Assembly (NCBI GenBank): GCA_016946835.1 | Contig: JACVTC010000123.1 | Span: 228,501 to 292,500 of the forward strand | Direction: 5' to 3' | Source: Neocallimastix lanati (nom. inval.) | Lineage: Eukaryota; Neocallimastigomycota; Neocallimastigomycetes; Neocallimastigales; Neocallimastigaceae | Length of the DNA stretch: 64,000 bases | Shown: piece after piece, positions 3,001 to 64,000 of the stretch | Numbering within the stretch: the first letter of the stretch is position 1 | How the letters are laid out: each line of letters starts with the position of its first letter | Notes under the pieces: generated by a model | Told to the model about the DNA's origin: nothing | The model's input: only the letters and a program-made list of their open reading frames with translations | Databases searched by the model: none | Program-made: the position numbers and the translations under genes

Positions 3001-6000
3001 TTATTTGCTCCAATGGATTTCGCTATTGTTGTTGGTTGGCAGAGTATTATCCGTGCTATCTTCCCAAAATTCATCAATGCCGATTTATTAAAGTTGGTTC
3101 ATTTAACTAACGGATTCCGTATGATTGATAATGAATCTGGTTTAAAGGAAGGTGATATTGTTAAGACTGAATCTCGTATTATTAGTGTTATTAATGATGA
3201 AACTGGTAAGATTGTTGAAGTTAAGGGTGTCTTAAAGCGTGATGAAAAGCCATTTATGGAAGTTATTTCTAAGTTCTTCTACCGTGGTGTCTTTTCCGAT
3301 TACGATTCTACCTTCAAGAATGTTGAAGAAAAGGCTTATCATGTTACCTTAAAGAATAAGAAGGATGTTCATATTCTTGAATCTCTTGATTGGTTCAAGA
3401 TGACCACTGATGACGAACAATTGGCTCTTACTCAAGGTGATCAATTACTCTTTGAATTGAATAGTGAATACACTTTCAAGACAAGTGATGTTTACAGTAG
3501 GGTGAAGACTTTCGGTACTGTTAAAAAGTTATTATCTACTAAGGTTTATGTTGATGTTGCCAAGGTTGACTATTTATATGATAAACCAGATGGTTCTTGT
3601 GGTAACCCAGTTATTGACTTTTTAGAAAGAAATGGTAAGGTTCAAGATACTCCAGTCTACTTTGAAAATGGTGGTTACAGTATTATGCCAAAGGGTAAGG
3701 GAATTTCTAGTGTTGTTAACACTCACTCCTCTAACATTGGATACTCCCGTGTCTCCGGTGATGTTAATCCAATTCATACTAACCCATACTTTGCTCAATT
3801 AGCTGATCTTCCAGGTAACATTACTCACGGTATGTGGACTAGTGCCTCTACTCGTAAGTTTGTTGAAACCTTTGCTGCTGAAAACCATCCACATCGTGTT
3901 ACCTCTTATGAAGTTAAATTCTTAGATATGGTCTTCCCAGGTGATCGTTTAGAAACCAAGCTTTTCCATACTGGTATGGCTAATGGTAAGAAAATTATTC
4001 AATGTAAGACGATCAACCAAGATGGTAAGGTGGTTCTTGAAGGTACTGCTGAAGTTGAACAACCTATTACTGCTTATGTCTTCACTGGTCAAGGTGCTCA
4101 AGAAGTAGGTATGGGTATGGACTTGTATGAAAAGTCACCAGTAGCTAGAGAAATTTGGGATCGTGCTGATGCTCACTTGATGGAAAATTATGGTTTCTCT
4201 ATTATTGATATTGTTAAGAATAATCCAACTGAAATTACTATCTACTTTGGTAATGTTAAGGGTCAACAAATTCGTAAGAATTATCAACAGATGACTTATG
4301 AACATGTTAATTCTGATGGTGTTGTTGAAAGTCTTTCACTCTTCCCAGAAATTGATGACGACAGTGTTTCCTACACCTTCCGTCACATTGGAGGTTTATT
4401 ATCGGCTACTCAATTCACACAACCATCCCTTGTTTTAATGGAAAAGGCTGCTTTTGAAGAAATGAGATCTCGTGGTTTCATTCAACAAAACAGTGCTTTT
4501 GCTGGTCATAGTTTAGGTGAATATGCTGCCTTAACTGCTATTGGTGATGTCTTAAGTATTGAAACGTTGGTTGATGTCGTTTTCTATCGTGGTATGACTA
4601 TGCAAAGAGCCGTTCAACGTGATTCTAAGGGTCGTTCCGATTATGCTATGTGCGCCGTTAATCCAACTCGTGTTAGCCGTACTTTCAACGAAAGTGCCTT
4701 ACAATATCTTGTTGCTAACATTAAGAAGGTTACTGAAGGTTTAATTGAAATTGTAAACTACAATGTTGATAACTGGCAATATGTTGTTTCTGGTGATCTT
4801 ATTTCCTTACAAGTTCTTACTCTTGTCTTAAACTACTTAAAGGCTGAAAAGATTGATTTAACTGTTTTATTGAACACTCTTTCTGTTGAAGAAGTTCAAA
4901 AGCAAGTTAATGAAATTATTAGTACTTCCTTTGAAAAGGCTAAGGAACAAAAGAAAAAGCATGGCTATATTAAATTAGAACGTGGTGCTGCTTCTATTCC
5001 ATTACGTGGTATTGATGTTCCATTCCACTCTAGTTTCTTATTAAGAGGTGTTGCTCCATTCCGTCAATACTTGATGAGTAAGTTTGATCCAAACTTGATT
5101 GACGTTAACCGTTTAATCGGTAATTATATTCCAAACTTAACTGCTGAACCATTCTCTCTTAAGAAGGAATTCATTGAAAATATTTATGCTAAAACTAATT
5201 CTTCTCGTATTAAGAATGTCTTAAAGGGTTGGACTGATGATAAATACGCTTCTCCACGTCTTCAACAAAAATTGGGTTACATTCTTTTAATTGAATTATT
5301 AGCTTACCAATTTGCTAGTGCTGTCAGATGGATTGAAACTCAAGATAGATTATTCGTTGATATTGGTGTTGAACGTTTAATTGAAATTGGTCCAGGTCCA
5401 ACACTTTCTGGTATGGCTCAAAAGACCTTAAAGTTTAAGTATGAATACTATGATGATGCTACCAGTTATCGTCGTGAAATTCTTTCTTACTCTAAGAACT
5501 ATAAGGAAATCTTTTATGACTTTGAAGATGAATCTGATCCAGAAGTTTCTGAAGAAACTTCTGCTCCTGCCGCTCCAGTTGCTGCCGCTGCAGTTCCAGT
5601 TCCAGCTCCAGCTCCAGTTCCAGTTGCTGCTCCAGTTGTTGCTGCTGGTAGTGTTGCTGATGAAGATATTCAAGTTAAACATTTAATTAACATTCTTATT
5701 GCTCAAAAGTTAAAGAAGAAGGCTAATGAAGTTCCAATGACTAGTACTATTAAGGAATTAGTTGGTGGTAAGTCTACTCTTCAAAATGAAGTTTTAGGTG
5801 ATTTACAAAAGGAATTCGGAAGCAGTAATGTTCCAGATAAGTCTGAAGAATTACCATTAAATGAATTAGCTAGTCAAATTGGTACTGGTTCTGTTGCTCT
5901 CGGTAAATACAGTCAAACTTTAGTTAATAAACTTATTAGTGCTAAGATGGCTGCTGGTTTCACTAAATCTAAAATTAGTGGTTATCTTTCTCAAAAGTAC

Positions 6001-9000
6001 GGTTTAGGTCCAAAGAGAACTGATGCCTTATTATTATTCGGTTTAACGGATGAACCATCCGCTCGTTTCGGTAGTGAAGATGAAGCTAAGGCTTGGTTAG
6101 ATAAGATTGCCACTGGTTATTCTGCTTTTGTTGGTGTTGGTCTTTCTTCTGGTGCTCCAGCTGCTGTTGCTCCAATGGCTATGGCTGTAGCCGCTGCTCC
6201 AGTTGCTGCTGGTGCTGCTAGTGTTGCTGATGAAGATATTCAAGTTAAGCACTTAATTAACATTCTTATTGCTCAAAAGTTAAAGAAGAAGGCTAATGAA
6301 GTTCCAATGACTAGTACTATTAAGGAATTAGTTGGTGGTAAGTCTACTCTTCAAAATGAAGTTTTAGGTGACTTACAAAAGGAATTCGGAAGTAATAATG
6401 TTCCAGATAAGTCTGAAGAATTACCATTAAATGAATTAGCTAGTCAAATTGGTTCTGGTTCGGTTGCTCTCGGTAAATACAGTCAAACTTTGGTTAACAA
6501 ACTTGTTAGTGCTAAGATGGCTGCTGGTTTCACAAAATCTAAGATTCAAGAATATCTTTCTCAAAAGTACGGTTTAGGTCCAAAGAGAACTGATGCCTTA
6601 TTATTATTCGGTTTAACGGATGAACCATCCGCTCGTTTCGGTAGTGATGTTGAAGCTAAGGCTTGGTTAGATAAGATTGCTCCAATGTACTTCAGTTTTG
6701 TTGGTGTTTCTGCTGGTGCTGCTCCAGCTGCTGGTGCGGCTGCCGGTGTCCCAATGATGGCAGCTCCAGTTAATGCTGGTGCTATTGCTGAAGCTACTAG
6801 AAAGTATGATCAATTGATTAAGGAACAACTTGATATTTTCTTAAACTATCTTGATATTGATCCACGTGAAGGTTTCAATCTCTATGAAGATGAATTAAAT
6901 AATGCTGCTAAGTTACGTGCTGAACTTGACCTCTGGATGAATGAACATGGTGATGAATATGCTCAAGGTATTAAGCCAATCTTTGATCCATTAAAGGTTA
7001 GAAAGTACGATTCCTACTGGAATTGGGTCCATCAAGAATCATTAATTCTTTACTACGATATCTTGTATGGTAGATTAGCTGTTGTTGACAGAAAGGTTAC
7101 CAGTCAATGTATTCATGTTATGAACAGAGCTGATCCACATCTTATTGATCACTATGCCTATAGAATTAGTGTTACTGATCCAAAGAAGGGTCCAACCTAT
7201 GAATTAGCTAAGGAATTTGCTCAAATTCTTATGGAAAACTGTACTGAAGCGATGAGTGAAAATCCAGTTTACAAGGATGTTGATATTCCAACTATGCCAC
7301 AAACTACGGTTACTGAAAGTGGTGAAATTAAGTATGCTGAAGTTCCACGTCCAGGAATTAGAAAGATGGAATCTTACATTAAGTTAATGCAAGCTGGTAG
7401 TAGAATTACTAGAATTCCAACAAAGCATTCTAACCGTTCTATTCGTTTCACTGGTGGTAACAATAAGACCAGAGTCAAGTCTAAGAAGGTTCCATTCCTC
7501 TTCCTTAAGGATCCAAAAACCGGAGAATATGATGAAAAGTTAACCAAGGTCTACTACAAGTCTCTTTACGCCATGGCTAATGATGGTATTAGCTTTAAGA
7601 ACAAGTATGTTTTAATCACTGGTTGTGGTCGTAACTCCATTGGTTCCCAAATTATTAAGGGATTATTAAATGGTGGTGCTAAGATTATTGCTACTACTTC
7701 CAGATTCAGTAAGGCAACCATGCAATACTACCGTCAACTCTATGAAGATCATGGTTCTAAGGGATCTTGCTTAATTGTTGTTCCATTCAATGCCGCTTCT
7801 GTTGAAGATGTTAATCGCTTAATCGATTACATTTACTCTAAGGATCCAAAGAATGGTTTAGGATGGGATCTTGATTACGTTATTCCATTCGCTGCCATCT
7901 CCGAAAATGGTAGAACTTTAGAAAACATTGACAGTAGAAGTGAATTAGCTCATAGAATTATGCTTACTAACTTATTAAGAATGTTAGGTAAGATTGTTAG
8001 CCAGAAGGAGGCTCACAAGTATGATACTCGTCCAGCTCAATGTATTCTTCCAATGTCTCCAAACCATGGTACCTTCGGTGGTGATGGTCTCTACTCTGAA
8101 TCCAAGATTGCTCTTGAAACCCTCTTCAACCGTTGGCATTCAGAAGGATGGGGAGGTTACCTTACCGTTGCTGGTGCCGTCATTGGTTGGACCAGAGGTA
8201 CTGGTTTAATGAATAGTAATAACCTTGTTGCTGAAGGTATTGAAATGTTTGGTGTTCACACTTTCAGTACTCATGAAATGGCCTTCAACCTTATTGGTTT
8301 AATGCACAGTGACATTTGTAAGCTCTGTCTTAAGAACCCAGTCTTTGCTGATCTTAATGGTGGTCTTCAATTCATTGATAACTTGAATAGTAACATTAAC
8401 ATGATTCGTACCATCTTAAATGAAACCTCTGAAATTAGACGTTCTATTAAGAACGAAAAGGAATTGGAGAAGAACATTACTCTCGGTAAGCTTCTTGAAA
8501 AGGAAAAGAAATTGGTATTGAAGCCACGTGCTAACTTAAAGTTCTCCTTCCCAAAGGTCAAGCCATTTGAAGAATTAAAGAAGTTAGATTACTTACGTGG
8601 TATGATCGATTTAGATCGTACTGTTGTTGTTACTGGTTATGGTGAAGTTGGTCCATACGGTAACTCACGTACTCGTTGGGAAATGGAAGCCTATGGTAAA
8701 TTCTCTCTTGAAGGTTGTATTGAAATGGCCTGGATTATGGGTATGATCAAGTATGCTAAGAACAAGAAGACAAAGAATGGTAAACTCTATTCTGGATGGG
8801 TTGATGCTGAAACCGGTGAACCAGTTCAAGATTACGAAGTTAAGGCAAAGTACGAACAAAGAATCTTAGAACACACTGGTATCCGTTTCATCGAACCAGA
8901 ACTCTTTGATGGCTATGATCCAAATAAAAAGAACTTCTACCAAGAAGTTGCTATCGATCATGACTTACCAGGATTCGAATGTAGTAAGGATGAAGCCGAA

Positions 9001-11262
9001 CAATTCAAGAAGAAGCATGGAGATCGTGTTGATATCTTTGAAAATGGTGAATCTGGTCAATGGATTGTTAAGATTAAGAAGGGATCTACCATTTACATTC
9101 CAAAGGCTCTTCAATTTGATAGAACTGTTGCTGGTCAAATTCCAACTGGTTGGAAGCCAGAAACCTATGGTATTCCAAAGAGTATTATTGATCAAGTTGA
9201 TCCAATTACCCTTTATGTTATTGTTGCTACTGTTGAAGCTTTAGTTAGCTCTGGTATTACTGATCCATACGAATTTTACGAATATGTTCATGTTTCTGAA
9301 GTTGGAAACTGTTCTGGTGGTGGTGTTGGTGGTATGGTATCCAACCGTAAGCAATACTTTGAACGTCTCTTTGAAAAGCCAGTTCAAAATGATATTCTTC
9401 AAGAATGCTTCATCAACACTATGCCAGCTTGGATTAATTTATTATTACTTTCTTCTTCTGGTCCAATTAAGACACCAGTTGGTGCTTGTGCTACTGCCGT
9501 TGAATCTGTTGAAATTGGTTTAGAAACTATCTTAAGTGGAAAGGCTAAGATTGTTATTGTTGGTGGTTACGATGACTTCCAAGAAGAAGGTTCCTATGAA
9601 TTTGCTAACATGAAGGCTACCAGTAACTCCTTAGAAGAATTAGCTCATGGACGTGATCCATCTGAAATGTCTCGTCCAGCTACTACTACTAGAGGTGGTT
9701 TCATGGAATCTCAAGGTGCCGGTCATGAAATTTTGATGACAGCTTCTCTTGCTATTAAGATGGGTGTTCCAATCTACGGTATTATTGCTCATACTTCCAC
9801 TGCTACGGATAAGGAAGGACGTTCTGTTCCAGCTCCAGGTCAAGGTATCTTAACTACTGCTCGTGAAGCTCATGCCACCTACAACCCATTATTAGACTTT
9901 AAGTACCGTGCTCGTCAATTGAAATTCCGTCGTAAGCAAATTAAGTTATGGATTGAAAATGAATTAGAATTATTAAGAGAAGAAGTGGATGCTAAGGAAA
10001 ATAAGGATGATGAACAGTTCACAAAGTATATTAAGGAAAGAACTGCTTACATTAACAAGGAAGCTAAGCGTCAAGAAAAGGAAGCTCTTCGTACCTATGG
10101 TAATGAATTCTACAAGAATGATCCAACAATTTCTCCATTAAGAGGTGCTCTTGCCGTTTTCGGCTTAACTATTGATGATATTGAGGCATTATCTTTCCAT
10201 GGTACTGGTACAAAGGCTAATGATACTAATGAATCCGAAGTCATTAACAAGCAATTCAAACATCTTGGTCGTAGTAAGGGTAATGTTTGTCCAGCCATCA
10301 TGCAAAAGTACTTAACTGGTCATCCAAAGGGTGCTGCCGCTTCTTGGATGCTTAACGGTATGCTTCAAGTCATCGAAACTGGTATCATTCCAGGTAACCG
10401 TAATGCCGATAATATTGAAGAAAAGCTTCGTAAATTCGAATACATCTACTTCCCATCTCGTTCCATTCATACAGATGGTATTAAGGCTGGTTTATTAAAG
10501 TCTTTCGGTTTCGGTCAAGTTGGTGGTGAAGTTTTAGTTATTTCTCCAGATTACGTTTTATCTAGTCTTACAAAGGAAGAATATGACGTCTACTGTAAGA
10601 AGAGAGAAGTTCGTCAACAAGCTATGTATAGATACTTACATGAATCTATGACTGAAAATGCTGACTTTGTTCAAGTTAAGGATCATCCACCATACGATGA
10701 TACAAACGAATCTAGTGTCTACTTAGATCCATTAGCTAGAGCTTCCTATGATAAGAAGGAAGGTACTTGGAAGTTCAGTGGTAAACGTGAAAACTATTCT
10801 GATATTTCTGAGAAGGAAGCTAAAAAGATTAAACAAATTCTTCTTTCTGATGCTATAAAGAATAAAAGTGGTAGTAATGATAATAATGGAATTGGTGTTG
10901 ATATTGAATTAGTTACCGAGGTTCCAATTACCAATGAAAACTTCCTTGAAAGAAATTTCACTAAGGAAGAAATTAAGTACTGTATGAGTAGACCAGATCC
11001 ACAATCTAGCTTTGCTGGTAGATGGAGTGCTAAGGAAGCTGTTATTAAGGCAGTATCTTCTCGTGCTACTTCTAAGGTTTGGACTAAAGGTGAAGCTGCC
11101 CCACTTATTGATATTGAAATTTTACCTGGTGAATCAGGTGCCCCAGTGGTTAAATTTTATAATGATGCTGAAAAAGCTGTTAAAGATGCTGGTATTAACA
11201 ATGTTAAAGTTACTATTTCTCATTCTGGTGGTTTCTCTTGTGCTATGGCTATGGCTGAATAA
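1..11262 (+). CDS. Single-chain fungal type I fatty acid synthase (beta-alpha fusion, tandem ACP), 5' truncated
   Basis: Cytosolic megasynthase making long-chain acyl-CoA from acetyl- and malonyl-CoA with NADPH. The frame is open from base 1, so the start lies upstream; the ATG at 280 is internal. Using residues counted from base 1: the C-terminal part of the starter acetyltransferase (to about 180, with PFHCDYL), enoyl reductase (about 245-650, with MVGGMTPTT and GGRAGGHHSFED), hot-dog dehydratase (GDVNPIH, His1259), malonyl/palmitoyl transferase (GHSLGEY, Ser1504), an Ala/Pro-rich linker, ACP1 and ACP2 (GGKS, Ser1925 and Ser2115), ketoreductase (LITGCGRNSIGS near 2537, then YSESK), ketosynthase (GACATAVES, Cys3163; FHGTGTKAND, His3400; TGHPKGAA, His3441) and a C-terminal phosphopantetheinyl transferase (GIGVDIE, FAGRWSAKEA) up to the stop. 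Yeast splits these domains between FAS1 and FAS2; here beta and alpha are one uninterrupted frame without introns. Roughly 340 N-terminal residues appear to be missing, judged against yeast FAS1. All visible catalytic residues are present. Confidence 0.98.
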   Translation, partial: NKIVEHIKATNQHLPEDRKIHISLYNGPRSIVCSGHPQSLYGLNVTLRKLRAQPNIDQNRIPYSQRKIRFSSRFLPISVPFHCDYLKDVNDIIMKDVERDHLILGKGELVIPILSTETGEDLRGHPQFTYELIKQICTLPVHWEKATSVTNATHVLEFGPSGAGVGLLTHRNKIGTGIQIILANSLESTEKEVLSKDSLFNRDPSSVKYSMNWEKLFAPKLVKSANNGKIYVETRFSRLLGKSPLMVGGMTPTTANENLVSACINAGYHIELAGGGQHSTQMIRDRIKKIMSKVPSGEGITMNIMFLNAFQWGFQYPLVQEMRKEGVPLDGLCIAAGVPSLDVANEILGNLKACGIKHVAFKPGSVSAIQQVIAIAKQNPDMPIIMQWTGGRAGGHHSFEDFHQPIIDTYASIRRQPNIIIVVGSGFGDAEGTLPYLTGEWARKFGYPPMPFDGILFGSRILVAAEAGTSEEVKKLLVKSEGIENEKEWENTYKGPTGGVITVKSELGEPIHKLATRGVLLWKELDETIFNLPPEKQLPALLARKEYIVHRLNKDYQKVWFPKKYDAEDPEKVVDLKDMTYYEVLRRMLELMYPNGQWIDVSLRMIYGDFFHRVEERFYKASEGKEFVSFLQSYEQLEEDPVGLLEKFMEERVPEARVQLINSDDLMYFLNICSRRDIKPPPFIPNMDKQFKYWFKKDSLWQSEHLEAVVGQDPGRVCVLQGPVAVRHSTKANEPISSILDTINQEHIKQLKARYYQNSDTVIPVVDYFGGAEIRDVRRKIRGVSIKSVKNDNIVKTMFEVTAENNEDLPDENDWYDLLAGQYYTWLRALLASKVFVKDDDGYYQDNCVRRILRPKPHHIVEIRSINDNIESLSMFNKQGGNEVVKITIDDKKLITVLMNEYSLNTKLVQLPLLFQYKPEQGYAPIHEVMEGRNERIKRFYYDLWFGLDNGKYTFEDDYNHDPREPFVSVSEPITRQQITDFVNIIGNRAESYTDRGQKVLFAPMDFAIVVGWQSIIRAIFPKFINADLLKLVHLTNGFRMIDNESGLKEGDIVKTESRIISVINDETGKIVEVKGVLKRDEKPFMEVISKFFYRGVFSDYDSTFKNVEEKAYHVTLKNKKDVHILESLDWFKMTTDDEQLALTQGDQLLFELNSEYTFKTSDVYSRVKTFGTVKKLLSTKVYVDVAKVDYLYDKPDGSCGNPVIDFLERNGKVQDTPVYFENGGYSIMPKGKGISSVVNTHSSNIGYSRVSGDVNPIHTNPYFAQLADLPGNITHGMWTSASTRKFVETFAAENHPHRVTSYEVKFLDMVFPGDRLETKLFHTGMANGKKIIQCKTINQDGKVVLEGTAEVEQPITAYVFTGQGAQEVGMGMDLYEKSPVAREIWDRADAHLMENYGFSIIDIVKNNPTEITIYFGNVKGQQIRKNYQQMTYEHVNSDGVVESLSLFPEIDDDSVSYTFRHIGGLLSATQFTQPSLVLMEKAAFEEMRSRGFIQQNSAFAGHSLGEYAALTAIGDVLSIETLVDVVFYRGMTMQRAVQRDSKGRSDYAMCAVNPTRVSRTFNESALQYLVANIKKVTEGLIEIVNYNVDNWQYVVSGDLISLQVLTLVLNYLKAEKIDLTVLLNTLSVEEVQKQVNEIISTSFEKAKEQKKKHGYIKLERGAASIPLRGIDVPFHSSFLLRGVAPFRQYLMSKFDPNLIDVNRLIGNYIPNLTAEPFSLKKEFIENIYAKTNSSRIKNVLKGWTDDKYASPRLQQKLGYILLIELLAYQFASAVRWIETQDRLFVDIGVERLIEIGPGPTLSGMAQKTLKFKYEYYDDATSYRREILSYSKNYKEIFYDFEDESDPEVSEETSAPAAPVAAAAVPVPAPAPVPVAAPVVAAGSVADEDIQVKHLINILIAQKLKKKANEVPMTSTIKELVGGKSTLQNEVLGDLQKEFGSSNVPDKSEELPLNELASQIGTGSVALGKYSQTLVNKLISAKMAAGFTKSKISGYLSQKYGLGPKRTDALLLFGLTDEPSARFGSEDEAKAWLDKIATGYSAFVGVGLSSGAPAAVAPMAMAVAAAPVAAGAASVADEDIQVKHLINILIAQKLKKKANEVPMTSTIKELVGGKSTLQNEVLGDLQKEFGSNNVPDKSEELPLNELASQIGSGSVALGKYSQTLVNKLVSAKMAAGFTKSKIQEYLSQKYGLGPKRTDALLLFGLTDEPSARFGSDVEAKAWLDKIAPMYFSFVGVSAGAAPAAGAAAGVPMMAAPVNAGAIAEATRKYDQLIKEQLDIFLNYLDIDPREGFNLYEDELNNAAKLRAELDLWMNEHGDEYAQGIKPIFDPLKVRKYDSYWNWVHQESLILYYDILYGRLAVVDRKVTSQCIHVMNRADPHLIDHYAYRISVTDPKKGPTYELAKEFAQILMENCTEAMSENPVYKDVDIPTMPQTTVTESGEIKYAEVPRPGIRKMESYIKLMQAGSRITRIPTKHSNRSIRFTGGNNKTRVKSKKVPFLFLKDPKTGEYDEKLTKVYYKSLYAMANDGISFKNKYVLITGCGRNSIGSQIIKGLLNGGAKIIATTSRFSKATMQYYRQLYEDHGSKGSCLIVVPFNAASVEDVNRLIDYIYSKDPKNGLGWDLDYVIPFAAISENGRTLENIDSRSELAHRIMLTNLLRMLGKIVSQKEAHKYDTRPAQCILPMSPNHGTFGGDGLYSESKIALETLFNRWHSEGWGGYLTVAGAVIGWTRGTGLMNSNNLVAEGIEMFGVHTFSTHEMAFNLIGLMHSDICKLCLKNPVFADLNGGLQFIDNLNSNINMIRTILNETSEIRRSIKNEKELEKNITLGKLLEKEKKLVLKPRANLKFSFPKVKPFEELKKLDYLRGMIDLDRTVVVTGYGEVGPYGNSRTRWEMEAYGKFSLEGCIEMAWIMGMIKYAKNKKTKNGKLYSGWVDAETGEPVQDYEVKAKYEQRILEHTGIRFIEPELFDGYDPNKKNFYQEVAIDHDLPGFECSKDEAEQFKKKHGDRVDIFENGESGQWIVKIKKGSTIYIPKALQFDRTVAGQIPTGWKPETYGIPKSIIDQVDPITLYVIVATVEALVSSGITDPYEFYEYVHVSEVGNCSGGGVGGMVSNRKQYFERLFEKPVQNDILQECFINTMPAWINLLLLSSSGPIKTPVGACATAVESVEIGLETILSGKAKIVIVGGYDDFQEEGSYEFANMKATSNSLEELAHGRDPSEMSRPATTTRGGFMESQGAGHEILMTASLAIKMGVPIYGIIAHTSTATDKEGRSVPAPGQGILTTAREAHATYNPLLDFKYRARQLKFRRKQIKLWIENELELLREEVDAKENKDDEQFTKYIKERTAYINKEAKRQEKEALRTYGNEFYKNDPTISPLRGALAVFGLTIDDIEALSFHGTGTKANDTNESEVINKQFKHLGRSKGNVCPAIMQKYLTGHPKGAAASWMLNGMLQVIETGIIPGNRNADNIEEKLRKFEYIYFPSRSIHTDGIKAGLLKSFGFGQVGGEVLVISPDYVLSSLTKEEYDVYCKKREVRQQAMYRYLHESMTENADFVQVKDHPPYDDTNESSVYLDPLARASYDKKEGTWKFSGKRENYSDISEKEAKKIKQILLSDAIKNKSGSNDNNGIGVDIELVTEVPITNENFLERNFTKEEIKYCMSRPDPQSSFAGRWSAKEAVIKAVSSRATSKVWTKGEAAPLIDIEILPGESGAPVVKFYNDAEKAVKDAGINNVKVTISHSGGFSCAMAMAE
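5650..6165 (+). repeat. ACP domain 1 of the FAS (copy 1 of a 570-bp duplication)
   Basis: Carrier domain of about 170 residues beginning SVADEDIQVKHLIN, with phosphopantetheine serine codon 5773-5775 in GGKSTLQNE. It repeats 570 bp (exactly 190 codons) downstream with only scattered base changes, including at synonymous sites. It has the full fungal ACP length: carrier fold plus the structural subdomain ending ARFGSEDEAKAWLDKI. Confidence 0.95.
6220..6735 (+). repeat. ACP domain 2 of the FAS (copy 2 of a 570-bp duplication)
   Basis: Second carrier domain with serine codon 6343-6345 in the same GGKSTLQNE context. It is nearly identical to copy 1 in protein and DNA, with small differences such as KIQEY for KISGY. 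Ala/Pro/Gly-rich linkers flank both domains, as expected for flexible tethers. Confidence 0.95.
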
Positions 11263-20054: not shown

Positions 20055-21725
20055 TTACTCCTTGATTCTCATTCCCTTTCCATGTCCTTTTCTATGTCCT
20101 TTATATGGTGGTTTGAAGTCAGAATTATCTCCTTTGTCATTTCCTTTATGTGGGAATTTTGGATAATCTTCATTTTTATCATGTGATGAAGTTGGTGGCG
20201 GAAAATCTTGTTTATCATTATCATTATCATTATTATCTTCAAAATCTTCATATAGTGGTGGTGGGAAATCATGCTCTCTGCTTTCCTCCCAATGATGACG
20301 ATGTCCTGGTGGTGGTGGTGGGAAATCATGCTTTCTACCTTCTTCCCAATGATGACGATGTTCTGGTGGTGGTGGTGGGAAATCATGCTTTCTACCTTCT
20401 TCCCAATGGTGACGACGTCCTGGTGGTGGTGGTGGAAAATCATGCTTTCTACCTTCTTCCCAATGATGACGATGTTCTGGTGGTGGTGGTGGGAAATCAT
20501 GCTTTCTACCTTCTTCCCAATGATGACGATGTTCTGGTGGTGGTGGTGGGAAATCATGCTTTCTACCTTCTTCCCAATGGTGACGACGTCCTGGTGGTGG
20601 TGGTGGGAAATCATGCTTTCTACCTTTTCCCCAATGATGACGATGTTCTGGTGGTGGTGGTGGGAAATCATGCTTTCTACCTTCTTCCCAATGATGACGA
20701 TGTTCTAGTGGTGGTGGTGGTGGGAAATTATGCTTTCTACCTTTTCCCCAATGATGATGATGTTCTGGTGGTGGTAGTGGGAAATTATGCTTTCTACCTT
20801 TTCCCCAATGATGATGATGTTCTGGTGGTGGTGGTGGGAAATCATGTTTTTTACCTTTTCCCCAATGATGATGATGTTTTGGTGGTGGTGGTGGTGGGAA
20901 ATCATGTTTTCTACTTTCCTTCCATTCAGAGAATGAATTATCTTCTGGTGAAAAATCATTCATATCTTCCTTCATTCTAGAAAATGAGTAACTTTCAGGA
21001 GGAGGATAAACAAGCTGATCATTATCATCTCTCCAATAAACATGACCTCTTAAATCATATTTATGTCTAAATGGAGGTGGTGGATATCTTCTTTTTCTAC
21101 CCATATATCCATGATGATGATGGTGATGATGATGGTGATGATGATGACGATGTTGACGATGATGTGGTTTTTTAAATTTGTCGTAGCATCTACATGTACA
21201 ATGCTTTAAAATATTACTATCTTTGTCTTTACTATCATTATCATCTCCAGGTTGAGAAGTGGGTGCTTGTTCTTCACTAGTCGTAGTAATAGCCTCGGAA
21301 GTAGTACTAGTAGTAGTAGTAGTAGAGATTATTTCTGTAGTAATTATTTCGCTTTCAATTTCTTCTTCATTATCTGAATTTACATTTTCATATTCTGCTT
21401 CAAATTCATTAATAATATCTTCCTTTTCATTATTATTATCACCATTAGATGGAACATCTACACAATGGCAAGAGCAACTTTCAAAATCTTTACCTTTTTT
21501 GTAATTCTTACCTCTATTTTTTCTCTTTTTAAAGATATCATAATTATCTTTTAAATAAAAATCATCTTGAATGAAATCAGTTTTATCTTCAATTCCACTT
21601 TTATCGTAAATTTCAGAATTAAAATTTAATACCGCTTCTTCATTATTAGATTGATTAGTTAAGATTTCAGATTTAACTAATGGAAACACTGTTAATAATA
21701 AATATAAAATGATTTTTTTATTCAT
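20055..21725 (-). CDS. Secreted His/Pro-rich tandem-repeat protein (556 aa)
   Basis: Not a recognised family. The N-terminus (MNKKIILYLLLTVFPLVKS) is a clear signal peptide, so secretion or cell-wall location is likely. Two CxCxC clusters follow: CSCHC at 84-88 and CTCRC at 176-180. Between them lie an acidic Asn/Glu region and a Thr/Ser stretch suited to O-glycosylation. A run of twelve histidines lies at about 194-205, then about twelve copies of a 19-residue unit of the type RKHDFPPPPPEHRHHWEEG, then an acidic and basic tail. His runs plus CxCxC suggest metal binding (inference). The proline blocks suggest an extended wall or adhesive polypeptide. Arg-Lys or Gly-Lys-Gly-Arg-Lys at each unit edge could be protease sites. 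Other frames are also open here because the unit is a multiple of three; this frame is chosen for the signal peptide and the non-repetitive N-terminus. Confidence 0.8.
   Translation of the reverse strand: MNKKIILYLLLTVFPLVKSEILTNQSNNEEAVLNFNSEIYDKSGIEDKTDFIQDDFYLKDNYDIFKKRKNRGKNYKKGKDFESCSCHCVDVPSNGDNNNEKEDIINEFEAEYENVNSDNEEEIESEIITTEIISTTTTTSTTSEAITTTSEEQAPTSQPGDDNDSKDKDSNILKHCTCRCYDKFKKPHHRQHRHHHHHHHHHHHHGYMGRKRRYPPPPFRHKYDLRGHVYWRDDNDQLVYPPPESYSFSRMKEDMNDFSPEDNSFSEWKESRKHDFPPPPPPKHHHHWGKGKKHDFPPPPPEHHHHWGKGRKHNFPLPPPEHHHHWGKGRKHNFPPPPPLEHRHHWEEGRKHDFPPPPPEHRHHWGKGRKHDFPPPPPGRRHHWEEGRKHDFPPPPPEHRHHWEEGRKHDFPPPPPEHRHHWEEGRKHDFPPPPPGRRHHWEEGRKHDFPPPPPEHRHHWEEGRKHDFPPPPPGHRHHWEESREHDFPPPLYEDFEDNNDNDNDKQDFPPPTSSHDKNEDYPKFPHKGNDKGDNSDFKPPYKGHRKGHGKGMRIKE
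20252..20912 (-). repeat. 57-bp coding minisatellite (about 12 units)
   Basis: Successive GGAAATCATG blocks fall 57 bp apart (for example 20321, 20378, 20435, 20492). Two units carry one extra GGT triplet (60 bp). Units differ mainly at the EHRHHW / GRRHHW / EHHHHW positions, and neighbours toward the C-terminal end of the protein are most alike, consistent with expansion by slippage or unequal exchange. Confidence 0.95.
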
Positions 21726-37834: not shown

Positions 37835-38974
37835 TCACAATTTTATGTTATTACATTGATTTAACCCAAAACCATACACACATGATATTTTAATTGCTTC
37901 TTCACAAAATTCATTTAATGCATTATTCAACCGCATTTTATCCTCTTGCGAATATTTTCTACTATCAATATCCATTCTGTCACATCCTTCATTTGAATAA
38001 TCATTCATACTAACATCACTTTGTGGACTTAATGGATACTCATTACTTTCATTAGAGCTACAACTAAAATCAGATAAGCTCGAACTTTCTGGACTTGGAA
38101 GATAATTATCACTACTCCTACTATTTTGATCAGCTTCTTCTTTACATTTCAACATATAATTAAATAACTCGATTATAAAATCGAAATCTTTCATTTTATT
38201 TTTTAAATATTCCGATTCTTTATAATTTCCTATTTCATATATATTCAATTTAAATTTAGGATTTTGTTCAAAACCATTTTCTCCTATTATTGTATCTAAA
38301 TTATAGTAAAGCATTCCTTTTCTGTTTTTATCTTCATATCTTTGAATCACCGATTTTTCTTTTTCATTATTTCTTTGGCTATAATGTTTCGAACTTCTAT
38401 TGGTAAAAGGATCACTTACACAAGCTTTACTATTTTTTAATCTAAATACAAACATATAAACATTATTTCCAATGTCTAACTCAAATTCAGAATATCCATT
38501 TCCATAATTACATTTAAGAGGGTCAATTATTTCAATCGGATTTTCTTCTCTATGCCTTTTAACTTTTAACTTCTTTTCAATAATAGTTCTAAATAATCTA
38601 TCAATTTGTCCACTTATTCCACTTAATCTTACTACAAACAACTGTTCAACCCCTTCTTCCGCCAATTCTTCAAAGTAAATACGGCGTTCTATTTTTGAAA
38701 TTTTACTTTCCGTTTTAAATGGTAGTACTATAATATCTTCTTCTTGAATTGTATTATAATTATTAGAATTTTCCCTAAAAAACTTATTTGCTTTTTCTAA
38801 TAATTTAATTTCATGTTCTTCTCCATCATTCACAAAGATATTACCATCACTGAATTCACAAATAATTTGAGGATATCGTAAAACTTTCAATAATGGTGAT
38901 TCGTATCCCCGTTTATTCAAAGAATTTATATTATTAGTAAGGGAGTTAAATTTTTCAGAAGCACTGTGTTTCAT
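37835..38974 (-). CDS. Orphan protein, TNRS-motif paralog A (379 aa)
   Basis: Unrecognised intronless gene. The N-terminal half is mixed alpha/beta-like with EEDIIVLPFKTESK (about 79-92) and a basic patch KKLKVKRHRE (about 133-142). A conserved block follows: VYMFVFRLKNSKACVSDPF, TNRSSKHYSQR, then RKGMLYYNLDTIIGE and KLNIYEIGN. The C-terminal third is Ser/Pro/Asp-rich (SPESSSLSDFSCSSNES), suggestive of a disordered activation or degradation-prone region. It is clearly related to the gene at 48367-49713 by EED(I/V)(I/M)VLP, P(F/I)TNRSxKxYSxR and the GxLYY/C motif. A nuclear regulatory role is a guess from the basic patch plus acidic tail. No signal peptide or membrane segment. Composition matches other genes here. 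Confidence 0.8.
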   Translation of the reverse strand: MKHSASEKFNSLTNNINSLNKRGYESPLLKVLRYPQIICEFSDGNIFVNDGEEHEIKLLEKANKFFRENSNNYNTIQEEDIIVLPFKTESKISKIERRIYFEELAEEGVEQLFVVRLSGISGQIDRLFRTIIEKKLKVKRHREENPIEIIDPLKCNYGNGYSEFELDIGNNVYMFVFRLKNSKACVSDPFTNRSSKHYSQRNNEKEKSVIQRYEDKNRKGMLYYNLDTIIGENGFEQNPKFKLNIYEIGNYKESEYLKNKMKDFDFIIELFNYMLKCKEEADQNSRSSDNYLPSPESSSLSDFSCSSNESNEYPLSPQSDVSMNDYSNEGCDRMDIDSRKYSQEDKMRLNNALNEFCEEAIKISCVYGFGLNQCNNIKL

Positions 38975-48366: not shown

Positions 48367-49713
48367 ATGAAGACCGAAAAAGAATATATTACTAAAAAAT
48401 ATTTAACATGTGTAATTAATTCAAATTATTACACCAACAAAGATGGTAGTCCATCTAATCAACCGCACGTTAAAAATTTAATAGAAGATCATGAAAAATT
48501 TCAAGAAGAATATCCGTTTGCTTTCTTAAAAACAGCAGAAGAAGATGTTATGGTTCTACCACATAATGAAAAAAATTCAGAATCAAGTAAAACTGAATAT
48601 TCAATTTTGTTGACTTCATTTATTGATTCATATAAAAAAGATAATAAGGTTACTGAATCAAATATTGATGCTTTTCTCATTCCTGTGAAACTTGGTTATC
48701 GTACTGATAAAAAGTATGAAGATATTATTAAAAAACTAGAAGAGAAAAAAAATAAGTATAAAGTATCATACCTTGAAATAACAAAAGGGGATGATATAAT
48801 GTTAGAACTGGAAATGGATGTAAATCCTGATTTCCTTTATTTTGTTGTCATTATTATAGATGACAAAAAAAAATTTTGTACACAACCTATAACAAATAGG
48901 AGCCTTAAACAATACTCTAGAAAAAGACCCCAGGAAGGTTTAAATGAGGATAGATTAAACTCTAATAAAAAAAGACCCCAGGAAGCTTTAAATGAGGATA
49001 GATTAAACTCTAATAAAAAAAGACCCCAGGAAGCTTTAAATGAGGATAGATTAAACTCTAATAAAAAAAGACCCCAGGAAGGTCTAAATGAGGATAGATT
49101 AAACTCTAATAAAAAAGGAAGAAAAGAAGAATCTTATCTAGCCTCGTTAAAAGCAAAGGAAGATGAAGGGACTCTCTATTGTCATTATAATGCTATATTT
49201 GATGAAGAAAATAAAATGAGGAATCAACTTTTATATCAGATAGAAGTTTTTGAAATTACAGATAATATTATTAATTTGAAAAACTCTACTATTTCTAATG
49301 TAGAGTTGTCACAAATCTTAAAAGAAATGAAAGAAAAAAAGGATAAAAGCCGGAATAATGGCAGCATTATAGTTCTTGAAGAATTTGTTTTTGACGATAA
49401 AATACCTATTGATATTGTTATTAAGGGAAAAGAAATATATTTATCCTATAATGTTACGTATTTAATAAATAAATATGAACTATCAAAAGATTGTAAATCT
49501 TATCTATTTAATGATGGCATATTGAAATCAAAATTTTGTAAAAGTGGAGAAAAAACTATTAAGTTTGAATTAAATATTATTAATCAAGAAAAATTTATTG
49601 AACAAATAGAAGATATCTTAAAGGATATTAATAAGATAAATGAAAATCCTCAAAACTTTGACTCGTCACCACTAAAGGTTTTTTCTTTTGTAAGTACGCA
49701 AATACTTAATTAG
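48367..49713 (+). CDS. Orphan protein, TNRS-motif paralog B (448 aa)
   Basis: Unrecognised intronless gene starting at MKTEKEYITKK just after an A-rich leader. Visible blocks: EEDVMVLPHNEKNSESSK, then a conserved beta-rich stretch DFLYFVVIIIDDKKKFCTQP, then ITNRSLKQYSRKR, then four tandem copies of a 16-residue unit (KRPQE(G/A)LNEDRLNSNK), then GTLYCHYNAIFDEEN and YQIEVFEITDN. A C-terminal region of about 140 residues rich in Lys, Glu and Ile follows. The same order (EED.VLP, P.TNRS.K.YS.R, G.LYY/C, ..I.EI) is found in the minus-strand gene at 37835-38974, which lacks the 16-residue repeats and instead has a Ser-rich tail. The KKRP at each repeat edge resembles a nuclear localisation signal. 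No signal peptide or transmembrane segment. Confidence 0.8.
   Translation: MKTEKEYITKKYLTCVINSNYYTNKDGSPSNQPHVKNLIEDHEKFQEEYPFAFLKTAEEDVMVLPHNEKNSESSKTEYSILLTSFIDSYKKDNKVTESNIDAFLIPVKLGYRTDKKYEDIIKKLEEKKNKYKVSYLEITKGDDIMLELEMDVNPDFLYFVVIIIDDKKKFCTQPITNRSLKQYSRKRPQEGLNEDRLNSNKKRPQEALNEDRLNSNKKRPQEALNEDRLNSNKKRPQEGLNEDRLNSNKKGRKEESYLASLKAKEDEGTLYCHYNAIFDEENKMRNQLLYQIEVFEITDNIINLKNSTISNVELSQILKEMKEKKDKSRNNGSIIVLEEFVFDDKIPIDIVIKGKEIYLSYNVTYLINKYELSKDCKSYLFNDGILKSKFCKSGEKTIKFELNIINQEKFIEQIEDILKDINKINENPQNFDSSPLKVFSFVSTQILN
48922..49113 (+). repeat. 48-bp coding tandem repeat, 4 copies
   Basis: Units at 48922, 48970, 49018 and 49066 encode KRPQEGLNEDRLNSNK or the G-to-A variant. Nearly identical at DNA level, so recent. 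They are inserted exactly after the conserved TNRSLKQYSR motif. Confidence 0.97.
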
Positions 49714-58493: not shown

Positions 58494-61400
58494 ATGAAGG
58501 GTTTCTTTGATAAAACTGATTACATTGGAAATGTCGAATTAGAAAGAAAATATTTATTACGTGATGAAGATGAAGAAACGTAATATTAATATGAATATAA
58601 TATATATATATATATATATTTATTTATTAGCTATTTTTAAAAGTTTTTATTCTATTTATTATTATGTAAAATTTATTTGAAGAGTACATTTAAAGAATAA
58701 TCATTAAAATATATTATAATATTTTTTAAATATAAATATTGAATAATAATCTCTTCTATATTTTAGTATTGCTTCATATGACATTGATAATATGATAGAT
58801 ATGATGAACCTTCGTTTTAATGGTGTGAGAAAAAATGAACCAGCTATTATTGCTAAGGAAAATTTATTACCTTTCCCATTTAAGCCTGAAATTAGTTCAC
58901 GTTATCCAGAAAACTGGAAAACTATTCCATTTTATCAATTATTTGATCTTGTAAAAGCTACAGCTTACGTTCTTAAAAAAAGATATGATTTTGCACCAGG
59001 AACAAGAGTTGGTATTATTGCTAATACATTACCATTTACACAATTAATGATTTATGCATTATGGAATTTACGTTGTGTTGTTGTTACTTTTCCACCAAGA
59101 CTTGGTAATGATGTTAAACAATACTGGGTTAAGCATTGTGATATTAAAATGATATTTTATGATGTCAATTTTAGACTTTATGATGATTATGAGAAAAATG
59201 AAAAATTAAATAAACAAGGTCAATGGATTTGGAAATGGATTCATCCATTAACTGAAGAAGATGAAGGTTTATGTGCTGGTAAAGAAGGTGTCAAAATGTG
59301 TTTCATTTATAGTGATGAATTATGTAAAGAAATTTATCAAGCAAAAGCTGAAGGAAAAGCATATCAAAGAAAGGGTGACCCTGATGATGTTCTTCTTGTA
59401 ATGGGTACTTCCTCTTCATCACAAGCTATTATTAAGAATGGTCAATGTACTAGTAAGTTATTGTTCTTTTATTTTTTATTTTTTTTTTGTTATAATCATT
59501 AAAATTATTTAGAAATTTATCTCTTTATCTTTATAATACTTTTTTATTTCTTAAAAAAAAAAGGTATTATAGATTTAGATTATATAACTATAAATTAATA
59601 GAAATGCTTATTTTGTTTTATTAACATTGTAAAATATTTTCCTATTTTAGAAATGAAATTCGTTCCATGGCAATTTAAACAATGTGTTGATAAATATAAA
59701 CAATTCCTTACTCCACAAAATAGACTTTATACTGATTTATTCGTAAAGTAAGTTATTATTATTTAGGAATTATTAATATATATGTACTGGTAATGAAGTT
59801 TTATTAATAAAAAACAAAAAAAAAAAAAATTTTTTTTGTTTATATTAAATAAATAAAAGTATTCCATTCCATCAATCCTTTGGTGCAATTTGTGCACTTA
59901 GTTACTGTGTTACTGGAGCTAGTGGTTTAATCTTTAAAACACAACAATTAAGTGATATTGGTTTTGTTCCTGAAATGATTTTAGATGATATGGCTGAAAC
60001 TAAAGCTCAAAGTGTTTGTCACTTCCCATTCCAAGTAATTACCTATTTTAAAATAATTTATATATATTAAATTAAATTAATTATTAAAATTTGTTATTTT
60101 TATTTTTAATATAACTATTCATTTTTTTTAAATTATTAAATATTTTTATTATTAAAAATTATTATCTTTACGTTTTTTTTTTTATTTATTTATTTATTTA
60201 TTTACTTATTTATTTATTTTATTTTATTTATTTAATTATTGTATAATTAGTATGCTGAATATAAAAAGTTATTTGACGAAAACCATCCAAGAAAGAAGAT
60301 TTGGGCTGATTATTTTAGAGAAGATCATGAACATAAAGTTTTTAAGACTGGTGGTGCTCCATTAAATCCAGTTGTTGCTAAATGGTATAAAGATACATTT
60401 GATATTTTAATTATGAATGGTTTAGGTTCCACTGAAGGTGGTCACGTTTTACATGATATTATGGAGGGTGAAATATTACCAGGTGAAGAAGGATATTATA
60501 TGAGAGTTCCATGGGTTGATTTCTACTTTAAACCATTAAATGATGATGATCCAACGATTGGTGAACTTTATACCCATTCTTCTGCTAATGTTACAGGTTA
60601 CTTTGGAAGAGCTAAGCCAGGAGAATTTTATGATTCACCAGTCCCGGGCATGCGTTGTGATGTTGGTAAGGAAGATCTTTTTGTTGATATTGATGGTGTT
60701 CCATACTTTAAAACTAATGATGTTCTTAAACGTTCACCAAAATCTGGTTATTATAAATATGTTACTAGAATTGATAGTATTATTACCTTTGCCACTGGTT
60801 TAAAGATGAATCCATTACCTTTTGAAAACACTATTAACTTTGAATGTACTAATATTAAGCATTGTTGTCTTATTTTAGATTCCACTCAAACTGAAGTTGT
60901 TTGTTTCGTTGAACCAAACTGGGAAGAAATTATTGTTGATGGTAAACCATTTGATACTTCCATTGATCCATCCACTCTTGACAGAAGCACTATTAAATCT
61001 TTAAGTAAAATTGCTCAAGAACAAACTTGGAATAGTATTTTTAAGGTTTTAATGGATGACTCTAAGAGTTTAACTAGTTGGGCTAAACAATTAACTATTC
61101 ACAATGTATACATCATAGACTATGGTAAAAAATTCCCAAGTACTGATAAGGGATCTCTTTCAAGAAGAGTTGCAAGATTACAATATTCTAACGTCGTAAA
61201 ATATATTTCTAAGGTTATTAGTGGTGAAATTTCAGAAATTCCTGATGAAGAAGTAGTTGAAAAAGAAAATGATGAATCAATTAATGTTAGTTACAGTGGT
61301 AAGGATATTGACAAGATTCTTAGTATGGAAAAAGAACAAAATAAATCTACTGTTACTGAAAACGAAAATGTTACGTATGAAGAGGAAGAATCTAATAAAG

Positions 61401-64000
61401 AAACAAAAACTAGAGAAGAAATTAATGATGAAATTCAAGATGCTATTAAGCTTATTTATCAATCAATCAAGGAAATTATTCCATCTACCCCAGAATTCGA
61501 ATCTTTCAACCCAGAAAGTCCATTCACAATCTATGGTATTGATTCTCTTTCAACTATTAAATTAACTAATGTATTATCAAGAAAATTGAATAAGCATTAC
61601 TCACCAGCTATTCTTTTCAACTATGGTAATACTTTTGAACTCGCTAAATTCTTATCTGGTAATGTTGATCAAAAGAATGTATCAGAAATTCGTGAATCTA
61701 TTCCAGCTTCCTTAAATGAAAAACAGTCTAATGGAAAAATTGCTATTATTGGTATGGGTCTTCGTTTACCTGGTGCTATTAACAGTGCAAAATCTCTTTG
61801 GTTAGCTTTAGCTAAGGGTAAGGATTGTGTTTTACCTCCAATTAAAACTAGAGATTTACATCGTAATTACGTTAATAAGCCAAGTGATCAATTAGATCCA
61901 ACTGAACACAATATTCCTCGTTTAGGTTTATACGATACTAGAAATAGTGTTGCTAAGCCATCTCAATTTGATGCTAAGTTCTTCAATTGTTTACCAGATG
62001 AAGCCTTAGCTCTTGATCCAAGACATCGTTGGATTTTAGAAACTAGTTGGGAAGCCTTAGAAAATGCTGGTATTCCACCAAACTCTTTAGAAAATTCTTC
62101 TACTGGTGTATTTGTTGGTATTAACGATGATCACGAATATTCTGATTTATTAACTGAATGTGGCGTTAAGAGTCCAATTGCTGCTCATGGTCAAAGTCCA
62201 AGTGGTATTGCTGGTCGTTTAAGTTACTTCTATAGATTATATGGTCCATCCTTCACTATGGATACTGCTTGTTCAACTGGTGCTTCTGCTCTTCATACTG
62301 CATGTCGTTCATTACAATGCGGTGATTGTGATTTATCTATTGTTTCTGGTGTTAAATTCATGTATTCTTCCAAGGATTTCTACATGACTTGTTCTGCTAG
62401 AATGACTTCACCACATGGACGTTGTGCCACATTTGATAAGGATGCTGATGGTTTCGTACCAGGTGAAGGTTGTGTTACCTTCATCTTGAAGCGTTTAGAA
62501 GATGCTGTTCGTGACAATGATCACATCTTATCTGTTGTTTTAAGTACTAGTAGTGGTCAAAGTGGTTTAAGACAATCTATTAGTGCTCCATCCTCAGAAG
62601 GTCAAGCTATTAATATGCGTAAGGCTATGAAGTTTGCTGGTATTAAACCAGAAGATGTGTCATATGTTGAAGCTCATGGTACTGGTACACCATTGGGTGA
62701 TGCTCTTGAAGTTCATGCCTTAAACGAAATTTACGGTGGTAGTCATACTGAAGAAAATCCACTTGTTGTTGGTAGTATCAAGACTAATATTGGTCACACT
62801 TGTGAAACTGCTGGTTTAGCTGGTATTGCTAAGGTCATTGTTTCAATGCAACACAAACATATTCCAAGAAACCTTCACTTCAATACCTTAAATCCAGAAA
62901 TTGATATTAAATCTATTCCAATTCAAATTCCAACCAAGACCTTACCATGGAACTCTACTGAACCAAACAAGCCACTTATCGCTCAAGTTTCTTCCTATGG
63001 TCTTCAAGGTAGTATTGTTCATGTCTTCTTACAAGAATATATTCCAGAAAATAAGGAACAAGGAGAAGCTAAAGAAGCTGAAACTGAAGTTGAAAATGAT
63101 AAGGAAAATCACGTATTAACAATTAGTGCCAAAACTTATTCTGCATTAATTGAACTTTGTAATAACTACATGAATGTTCTTGAAAAGATGGAAGAAGAAA
63201 ATGAAGATGTTTCTGATCTTTGCTTCTCATCTAATATTGGAAGACAACACTTTGATGAATTCAGATTATCCGTTAGTGGTAAGAATGCTTCTGAATTATA
63301 CAGTAATCTTGAAAAGGAATTAGAAAAGTTAGAGAATAAGATGGAAGAAAAGGAAGAAAGCAATACTACTACTACTACTCACAATGCAAAGAAGATAAAA
63401 CAGATGATGAGTGTAATTGCTGAAGATAAGAATGCTAAGATCGATGAAGCTCTTTACAAATTATTATTAGAGTTATTCCTTTCTCGTCCAGAATTCAGAA
63501 AGGCTCTTTTAGATTGTGACAGCATTATTTCTGAAGTTAGTAACAAGACCTATTCCTTAGTTGATGATATTGTTAATGGAGGAAAGAACAATAAGGAAGC
63601 TGCTGATGCCTTCCAAGCTATTAATGTCCTTTCCTTCTATTATGCCTTACACAAGACTTTAGATAAAGAATTAGATATTAGCAAATCTATCTACTGTGGT
63701 TATGGACTTGGAGAACTCATTACTATTCTTGTTAATGGTGGTATTTCTCTTAAGAAGGCCATCCAATTCCTTAAATTAGTTAATGAACAACAATCTATTG
63801 ATGCCTGGTATGATGAAAAGGAAGAAAGAACTTATAAATTAAATAAGAATATTTACTGTTTCAGTCAACAACAAGAACTTAAGTCAAGAAATGTCATTCC
63901 AAAGGAATATTACACTTCTCTTTACCAATACTTAAGTTCTAAGGAAGAAGAAGAAACCTTAAAATCTTTGGAAACTATGAGCAGTTCAATTATTAGTCAA
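58494..64000 (+). CDS. Hybrid megasynthase: adenylation - carrier - ketosynthase - acyltransferase-like (3' truncated)
   Basis: Polyketide/NRPS-like enzyme continuing past the window. Exons, all phase-consistent: 58494-58579, 58767-59452, 59651-59747, 59860-60034, 60251-64000, so 1598 codons are visible and the last exon is open to the end. Adenylation domain (about 40-690) resembles CAR/NRPS-like fungal A domains: FKTGGAPLNPVV, NGLGSTEGG, YFKTND, RIDSIITFATGLKMNP, and PSTDKGSLSRR with the A10 lysine. However, its P-loop reads MGTSSSSQAI instead of SGSTGxxKAV. Carrier domain: YGIDSLS, Ser780. Ketosynthase: DTACSTGAS (Cys1022), EAHGTGTPLGD (His1157), TNIGHT (His1197), complete triad, but the usual GTNAH loop reads GSIVH. 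Acyltransferase-like region: CGYGLGELITIL, with Gly1500 where the nucleophilic Ser belongs and no GQG motif. Secondary-metabolite product unknown. Confidence 0.9.

Follow-up and report, generated by a model that had tools for sequence, protein, structure and literature searches.

The stretch of DNA analysed here, hereafter the window, comprises 64,000 nucleotides (C28:228501-292500) within a 199-Mb assembly. Near its start, a single plus-strand frame of 3660 aa (280-11262) encodes a fused fungal type I FAS with the motif GHSLGE and two ACP-like repeats, and a similar FAS frame is found on C745. Further along, the minus strand encodes a protein containing numerous tandem repeats, some His-rich and some Pro-rich (20055-21725). 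Two proteins that are alike by eye, sharing a TNRSxKxYSxR-like stretch, are encoded on opposite strands (37835-38974, minus; 48367-49713, plus) between the FAS and the synthase gene that is the subject of this work, which begins approximately 58.5 kb into the window. The FAS was considered as a cluster partner of the synthase and rejected, being 47 kb away with no evidence of a link.

The synthase gene lies on the plus strand, with adenylation exons first and then a single large exon. A possible first coding exon, which would provide the N-terminus, is placed approximately at 58497..58562 by weak tblastn matches to the N-termini of two relatives, P0004 and P0005 (E 0.03-0.09). The exon at 58777..59454 (tblastn with P0004, 69% over 226 aa) encodes the N-terminal part of an adenylation (AMP-binding) domain, identified through PF00501 in relatives, and ends in the P-loop GTSSSSQAIIKNG. 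Two further adenylation-domain exons follow, a small one at 59653..59748 (MKFVPWQ..., start approximate; tblastn with P0005) and another at 59858..60034 (tblastn with P0004, 51% over 59 aa, E 5e-18). From 60251 to 64000, and continuing beyond the window's end, one open exon encodes the end of the adenylation domain, an ACP domain, a ketosynthase (KS), a linker and a region derived from an acyltransferase (AT), here called the pseudo-AT. Pfam recognises the adenylation C-terminus, the ACP (61499..61654; PF00550, E 5e-5), the KS (61736..62881; PF00109, E 3e-67, and PF02801, E 1e-34) and a CurL-like KS-AT linker (63110..63310; PF22621, E 8e-13), the last being better conserved than anything else downstream of the KS. 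The codon for the ACP's GIDS Ser (61544-61546) and those for the KS active site (Cys 62270-62272, His 62675-62677, Lys 62780-62782 and His 62795-62797) can be read directly from the DNA. The pseudo-AT occupies 63398..64000 and, according to the AF2 model, fold searches, profile-profile comparison (hhalign) and motif distances, consists of the large alpha/beta subdomain only. Its degenerate nucleophile elbow, GYGLGE (63698..63715), has a Gly codon (63704-63706, GGA) in place of Ser. The domain order of the family as a whole is adenylation, ACP, KS, pseudo-AT and stop.

The AT profile, PF00698, finds no match in the query exon in a Pfam scan, even at E<=10; despite this, the region after the linker is an AT by descent. 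With phmmer, it matches CurL (E 1.2e-10) with GYGLGE aligned to GHSVGE, and hhalign gives a 99.7% probability with four canonical ATs from this genome. Among solved structures, the CurL KS-AT didomain (4mz0), whose AT carries GHSVGE where the query elbow does not, is closest to the AT piece and, when domains are scored singly, to the KS as well; 7zma was rejected as the nearest KS relative, its high score having come from a chain with a pair of KS domains. The AF2 model, 297 residues long and built from a 14-row alignment (mean pLDDT 81.8, pTM 0.63), predicts that the fold of the AT large subdomain is retained. The model's listed structural matches are AT or KS-AT structures together with the AT-related hydrolase PksD. 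A different placement of linker and AT keeps the Foldseek TM-scores low (0.33-0.45 on the query); taken by itself, the AT part superposes on FabD at 2.6 A over 173 residues. In three of five scanned relatives PF00698 does match weakly, over at most positions 17-134 of 319. The best of the five, P0138 (E 1.1e-5, positions 18-133), scores 25.5 bits and still falls below the curated cut-off of 32.7, while P0137 and P0141 give E 0.004-0.006 and P0139 and P0140 give no match at E<=0.1.

The AT nucleophile is missing throughout the family: Ser occurs in none of 29 family rows, at least four of which are near-copies (P0008/C632_L029, 100%; P0012/C201_L036, 99.1%; P0137/C15, 99.8%; P0140/C6, 99.7%), and its position is occupied by Gly, Asp, Lys or Glu. 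These rows consist of 11 from the same genome (query included), 13 database proteins and five proteins from a later search, and they span own-genome paralogues, Piromyces, Anaeromyces, Neocallimastix, metagenomes and Orpsp1_1, which is presumably an Orpinomyces-type anaerobic fungus. Elbows in the first 24 read GYG, GFG, GNGI, GDG, GKG, GEG, SYG or GYD followed by xGE, and in the later five GDG, GYK, GDE, GYG and GYE. Outside the count are P0001, P0135 and P0136, which were found as relatives, and two broken own-genome copies with the elbows GFGFGE and GYGFGE. The GQG oxyanion loop has likewise been replaced, with AED/YAEN-like residues at that site.

The ferredoxin-like small AT subdomain, which would supply the catalytic His and Arg, is also gone, as judged from short motif distances and a short connection in the model. 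Only 50 residues separate the elbow from the next strand in the query, relative to 138 in the canonical own-genome AT of C168, so that 88 post-elbow residues are missing. From the elbow to YPFQR, the family spans 166-214 residues (excluding P0013, with 110, because its gene model is doubtful), which is 57-105 below the 271 of both C168 and C468. The hhalign gap falls at the small-subdomain segment, which would carry the catalytic Arg and the His of AFH[ST] and is absent, and in the AF2 model a connection of approximately 20 residues leads from the helix after the elbow (215-227) to the following strand (249-251).

Neither a second AT nor a downstream ACP is present in the 27 of 29 family rows that reach their end, all of which extend to YPFQR and stop 6-42 residues later; nine of them are own-genome open frames closing right after the post-AT linker. 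The two rows short of YPFQR are the query, cut by the window's end, and C632_L031, cut by the end of its locus. The query is listed at 1702 aa, of which approximately 1598 are counted from exons in the window, leaving some 104 residues beyond it, just enough for an end of the family type. Judging from this listed length, the query itself most likely has no second AT and no downstream ACP. A reducing region, a second ACP and a TE are absent from eight relatives scanned with Pfam, and Pfam scans of the query and relatives contain no docking domain.

A sequence-only reading of this locus had proposed that the protein selectively lost AT catalysis while remaining intact in other respects, citing the Gly codon within GYGLGE, the missing GQGxQ motif and the uninterrupted exon. 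All three observations hold, and the loss is fixed in the relatives read; the absence of Ser from every row shows that this is no strain-specific error, the AF2 model and fold comparison give an AT large subdomain, and the canonical downstream AT that could have overturned the proposal is not found in the rows with a complete end. Its further suggestion, that the pseudo-AT accepts malonyl groups in trans, is not supported. With the Ser, the GQG loop and the small subdomain lost, and with the nucleophile position variable, nothing recognisable is left to hold malonyl. The half of the AT with the pocket is missing. Direct acceptance of malonyl by the pseudo-AT is very unlikely, and a role as scaffold is likely.

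Elsewhere in the protein, the catalytic residues have been kept. The KS Cys/His/Lys/His set and the motifs DTACS, HGTGT and N[IV]GH occur in all 29 rows, and the ACP Ser in 28 of 28 covering rows (21 by pattern, C66 and C201b by reading, and the five later proteins by pattern), P0013 beginning after the ACP. Adenylation motifs A5, A8 and A10 are present in most covering rows. The usual adenylation P-loop is TSGSTGxPKG; that of the query, at about 59400-59454, is off-consensus, without the usual glycines, and is kept family-wide with small changes. Three solved relatives of the adenylation domain at E<=0.01 (E 7e-6 to 0.009) are a carboxylic acid reductase, an AMP-dependent synthetase and an oxidoreductase, names that point to a carboxylic acid as the probable substrate.

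Selection was gauged separately for the pseudo-AT and the KS. In eight close pairs, dN/dS is 0.06-0.45 for the pseudo-AT and 0.05-0.15 for the KS. In ten query-paralogue pairs, where dS is saturated, the values are 0.46-0.81 and 0.14-0.28, and constraint on the pseudo-AT is therefore weak. The AT/KS difference ratio is 1.7-4.4 in ten family pairs versus 1.1-1.8 in three canonical own-genome pairs, ranges that just overlap (1.74 and 1.76), and 1.5 in the pair formed by C522 and C124, two further Ser-less PKSs. Across 14 rows, 19 of 72 linker columns are invariant, as are 9 of 200 in the pseudo-AT. This pattern of selection and conservation is that expected of a structural remnant, although it falls short of proof.

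The family is apparently a feature of anaerobic fungi, inhabitants of the herbivore gut. Of 7,984 candidates scored against the pseudo-AT region, 14 matched at E<=1e-3, and of 5,012 scored against the adenylation-ACP region, 18 matched at E<=1e-5; every match with a named or coded source (10 of 14 and 9 of 18, respectively) comes from an anaerobic fungus. Because protein length and shared words restricted these searches, relatives may exist elsewhere. Within the genome, copies form a tandem group on C632 and occur on C157, C201 (two), C6, C15, C66 and C28, with broken copies on C632 and C63, and the family accounts for 11 PKS-type KS places, about half of those present. Both C168 and C468, the nearest intact PKSs of the same genome, carry GHSLGE and are matched by the ACP profile; a single origin of the family relative to them has weak support in the KS tree (51/7), at a point where long branches meet and the tool issued a warning. 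At their N-terminus, upstream of the KS, C168 and C468 (L046, L047) carry an ACP-like domain that apparently lacks the phosphopantetheine Ser (SLGLEAKDF). The motif GLQGS at the KS C-terminus was considered as a marker of unusual chemistry and set aside, since these two GHSLGE-bearing PKSs have GLSGS and the motif does not discriminate. Among the literature matches listed, titles and the beginnings of abstracts make no mention of dead ATs in anaerobic fungi, and the words trans-AT, malonyl and inactive do not occur in the available main text of PMC8106346.

A census of ATs uncovered a second set of Ser-less PKSs. PF00698 matches at 16 places in the genome: five FASs (with KS matches in the same frames, and GHSLGE read in three), seven PKSs with GHSxGE and four places without the Ser. 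No free-standing AT is among them, in a search blind to intron-split genes and to genes outside the available sequence. The Ser-less four, on C124, C522, C77 and C13 (L042-L045), have the elbow GYGAGE or GYNSGE. They are reducing PKSs: those on C124 and C522 keep the KS Cys and His motifs, the one on C77 has lost nearly its whole KS through an in-frame deletion, and C13 carries broken PKS frames. The KS tree groups C522 and C124 with the intact C235 and C334 and places them at a great distance from the window's family (100/100). Since the two groups sit on different KS branches, the AT Ser has probably been lost at least twice. PF00550 matches five of the seven intact-AT PKSs, with C235 available only in part and C27 read short of its end, and none of C522, C124 and C77 (150 of 158 candidates scored). 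All four relatives P0015-P0018 have GYGAGE or, in P0017, GYGMGE; PF00550 is absent from their listed domains, and a rescan of two of them at E<=1 again gave no match. Both C522 (by sequence) and P0018 start with a PLP-dependent, alpha-oxoamine-synthase-like domain.

Carrier-protein matches occur in several other settings in this genome. In two PKSs with GHSMGE ATs, the KR is followed by ACP matches in tandem (10 at C46:346574-351331 and 8 at C334:1522233-1525709), as in PUFA synthases, and small frames with an ACP match are found on C141, C30 and C677. Giant open frames of roughly 12,500-15,900 residues with many carrier-protein matches, on C721, C83, C445 and C755, are probably very large NRPSs.

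Taken as a whole, these observations suggest, at the level of sequence, that the enzymes of this family join or release acids instead of carrying out the usual chain building. With neither AT function nor an extender ACP further along, the protein can most simply be read as working without a malonyl extender, and this is the reading favoured here, although tentatively. The adenylation domain would activate a carboxylic acid and load it onto the ACP; the KS Cys would take the acyl group and hand it over to a non-extender acceptor carried elsewhere; and the KS would close the reaction by hydrolysis, by cyclisation or by forming an amide or ester, in line with published work on CalA3 and TAS1. 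The pseudo-AT and KS-AT linker would keep the KS in shape as a scaffold. Several points count against this reading. The off-consensus P-loop may impair loading, constraint on the pseudo-AT is weak, the AT/KS ratios of family and canonical pairs just overlap, the query's last 100 or so residues lie beyond the window, the nearest intact PKSs of the genome are conventional in both elbow and ACP, and the triad of TAS1 is Cys-His-Asn (PMC4640141). The residues for decarboxylation, too, are all kept, and ordinary condensation with a malonyl-ACP in trans is possible.

That last point makes a split assembly line, in which the pseudo-AT is again a scaffold and the KS performs a Claisen condensation with the malonyl-ACP of another protein, nearly as likely as the extender-free reading. 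The donor ACP could belong to a PKS or FAS or be a discrete protein, and it would be loaded by its own AT. The genome could supply such donors from its seven GHSxGE PKSs, its tandem ACP arrays and its small ACP-matching frames, and in algal PKSs AT function has been shifted in trans (PMC4661987). Set against the retention of every condensing residue in all 29 rows, however, is the lack of an obvious partner: eight of the nine strong KR places lie in PKSs with a KS match, and the ninth, C77, was rejected as a KS-less partner PKS because its AT is dead and it lacks an ACP match. The census without a free-standing AT and the Pfam scans without a docking domain weigh in the same direction.

An arrangement as in trans-AT PKSs proper is improbable. 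Another AT would then malonylate the protein's own ACP, which would carry starter and extender alike, and the pseudo-AT would be a docking site, the role held by the non-catalytic AT remnant that follows the KS and linker in bacterial trans-AT PKS modules. The ACP Ser, kept in all 28 covering rows, is compatible with this, but the pseudo-AT is much less conserved than the linker and, in a departure from the bacterial systems, no free-standing AT was found among the 16 PF00698 places and the protein contains no extender ACP. Decay of the whole family, leaving no enzymatic function, is more improbable still; the broken copies on C632 and C63, the aberrant P-loop and the fast-evolving pseudo-AT are outweighed by long open frames, retained active-site residues, purifying selection on the KS in the eight close pairs and occurrence in Piromyces, Anaeromyces, Neocallimastix and Orpsp1_1. 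Finally, a gene-model or assembly error that conceals a normal AT is scarcely credible, for even though the query's end lies beyond the window and the open frames were read without transcripts, proteins from other genera have the identical elbow type and C-terminus and nine paralogous frames finish right after the post-AT linker.

Returning to the extender-free reading, self-loading ligases that use a KS without extender units would mean that metabolite predictions for gut fungi are wrong for this family, and a dead AT with no downstream ACP would be a signature by which to find such enzymes elsewhere. Genome miners would probably label the genes of this family as ordinary or broken PKSs. The half-deleted AT, an intermediate state still under some selection, shows which portion of a KS-AT unit a scaffold may require. 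It is tempting to go further and suggest, as a possibility still somewhat doubtful, that anaerobic fungi have twice converted PKSs into extender-free KS ligases or release enzymes, in parallel to bacterial CalA3, with AT catalysis and the downstream ACP lost together. One lineage would be the adenylation-ACP-KS-pseudo-AT family, with half of its AT deleted, and the other the PLP-domain/KS-pseudo-AT-DH-KR proteins. If true, joint loss of the AT nucleophile and ACP would mark out, at the sequence level, KSs engaged in forming C-N or C-O bonds.

Among known systems, FnsA-type enzymes (A-T-KS-AT-DH-KR-ACP-TE; PMC9606254) share the A-T-KS-AT start that activates a carboxylic acid, but continue into a working extension part with ACP and TE, whereas the present family has nothing after its dead AT. 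The fungal NRPS-PKS TAS1 (C-A-PCP-KS) shares the order adenylation, carrier and KS and, in the available account, likewise has no working AT; it differs in having a condensation domain, a PKS part of KS only and the Cys-His-Asn triad, in contrast to the query's Cys-His-His and AT remnant (PMC4640141). The closest precedent is CalA3 of the calcimycin pathway, an ACP-less KS-AT-DH-KR release module in which the AT Ser is replaced by Gly, and the His and Arg by Leu (PMC10006239). Its KS makes an amide or hydrolyses, the KS Cys, both His and the Lys being needed for amidation, and its AT is inactive and structural (PMC10006239), comparable to the query's pseudo-AT. A Gly at the nucleophile position, no ACP after KS-AT (judged, for the query, from its listed length) and a KS with Cys-His-His and Lys are thus common to both. 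CalA3 retains both AT subdomains together with DH and KR regions, whereas the query's family lacks the small subdomain and ends at the post-AT linker; and while the available part of the CalA3 report describes no adenylation-ACP of its own, the query's family carries its own loading part.
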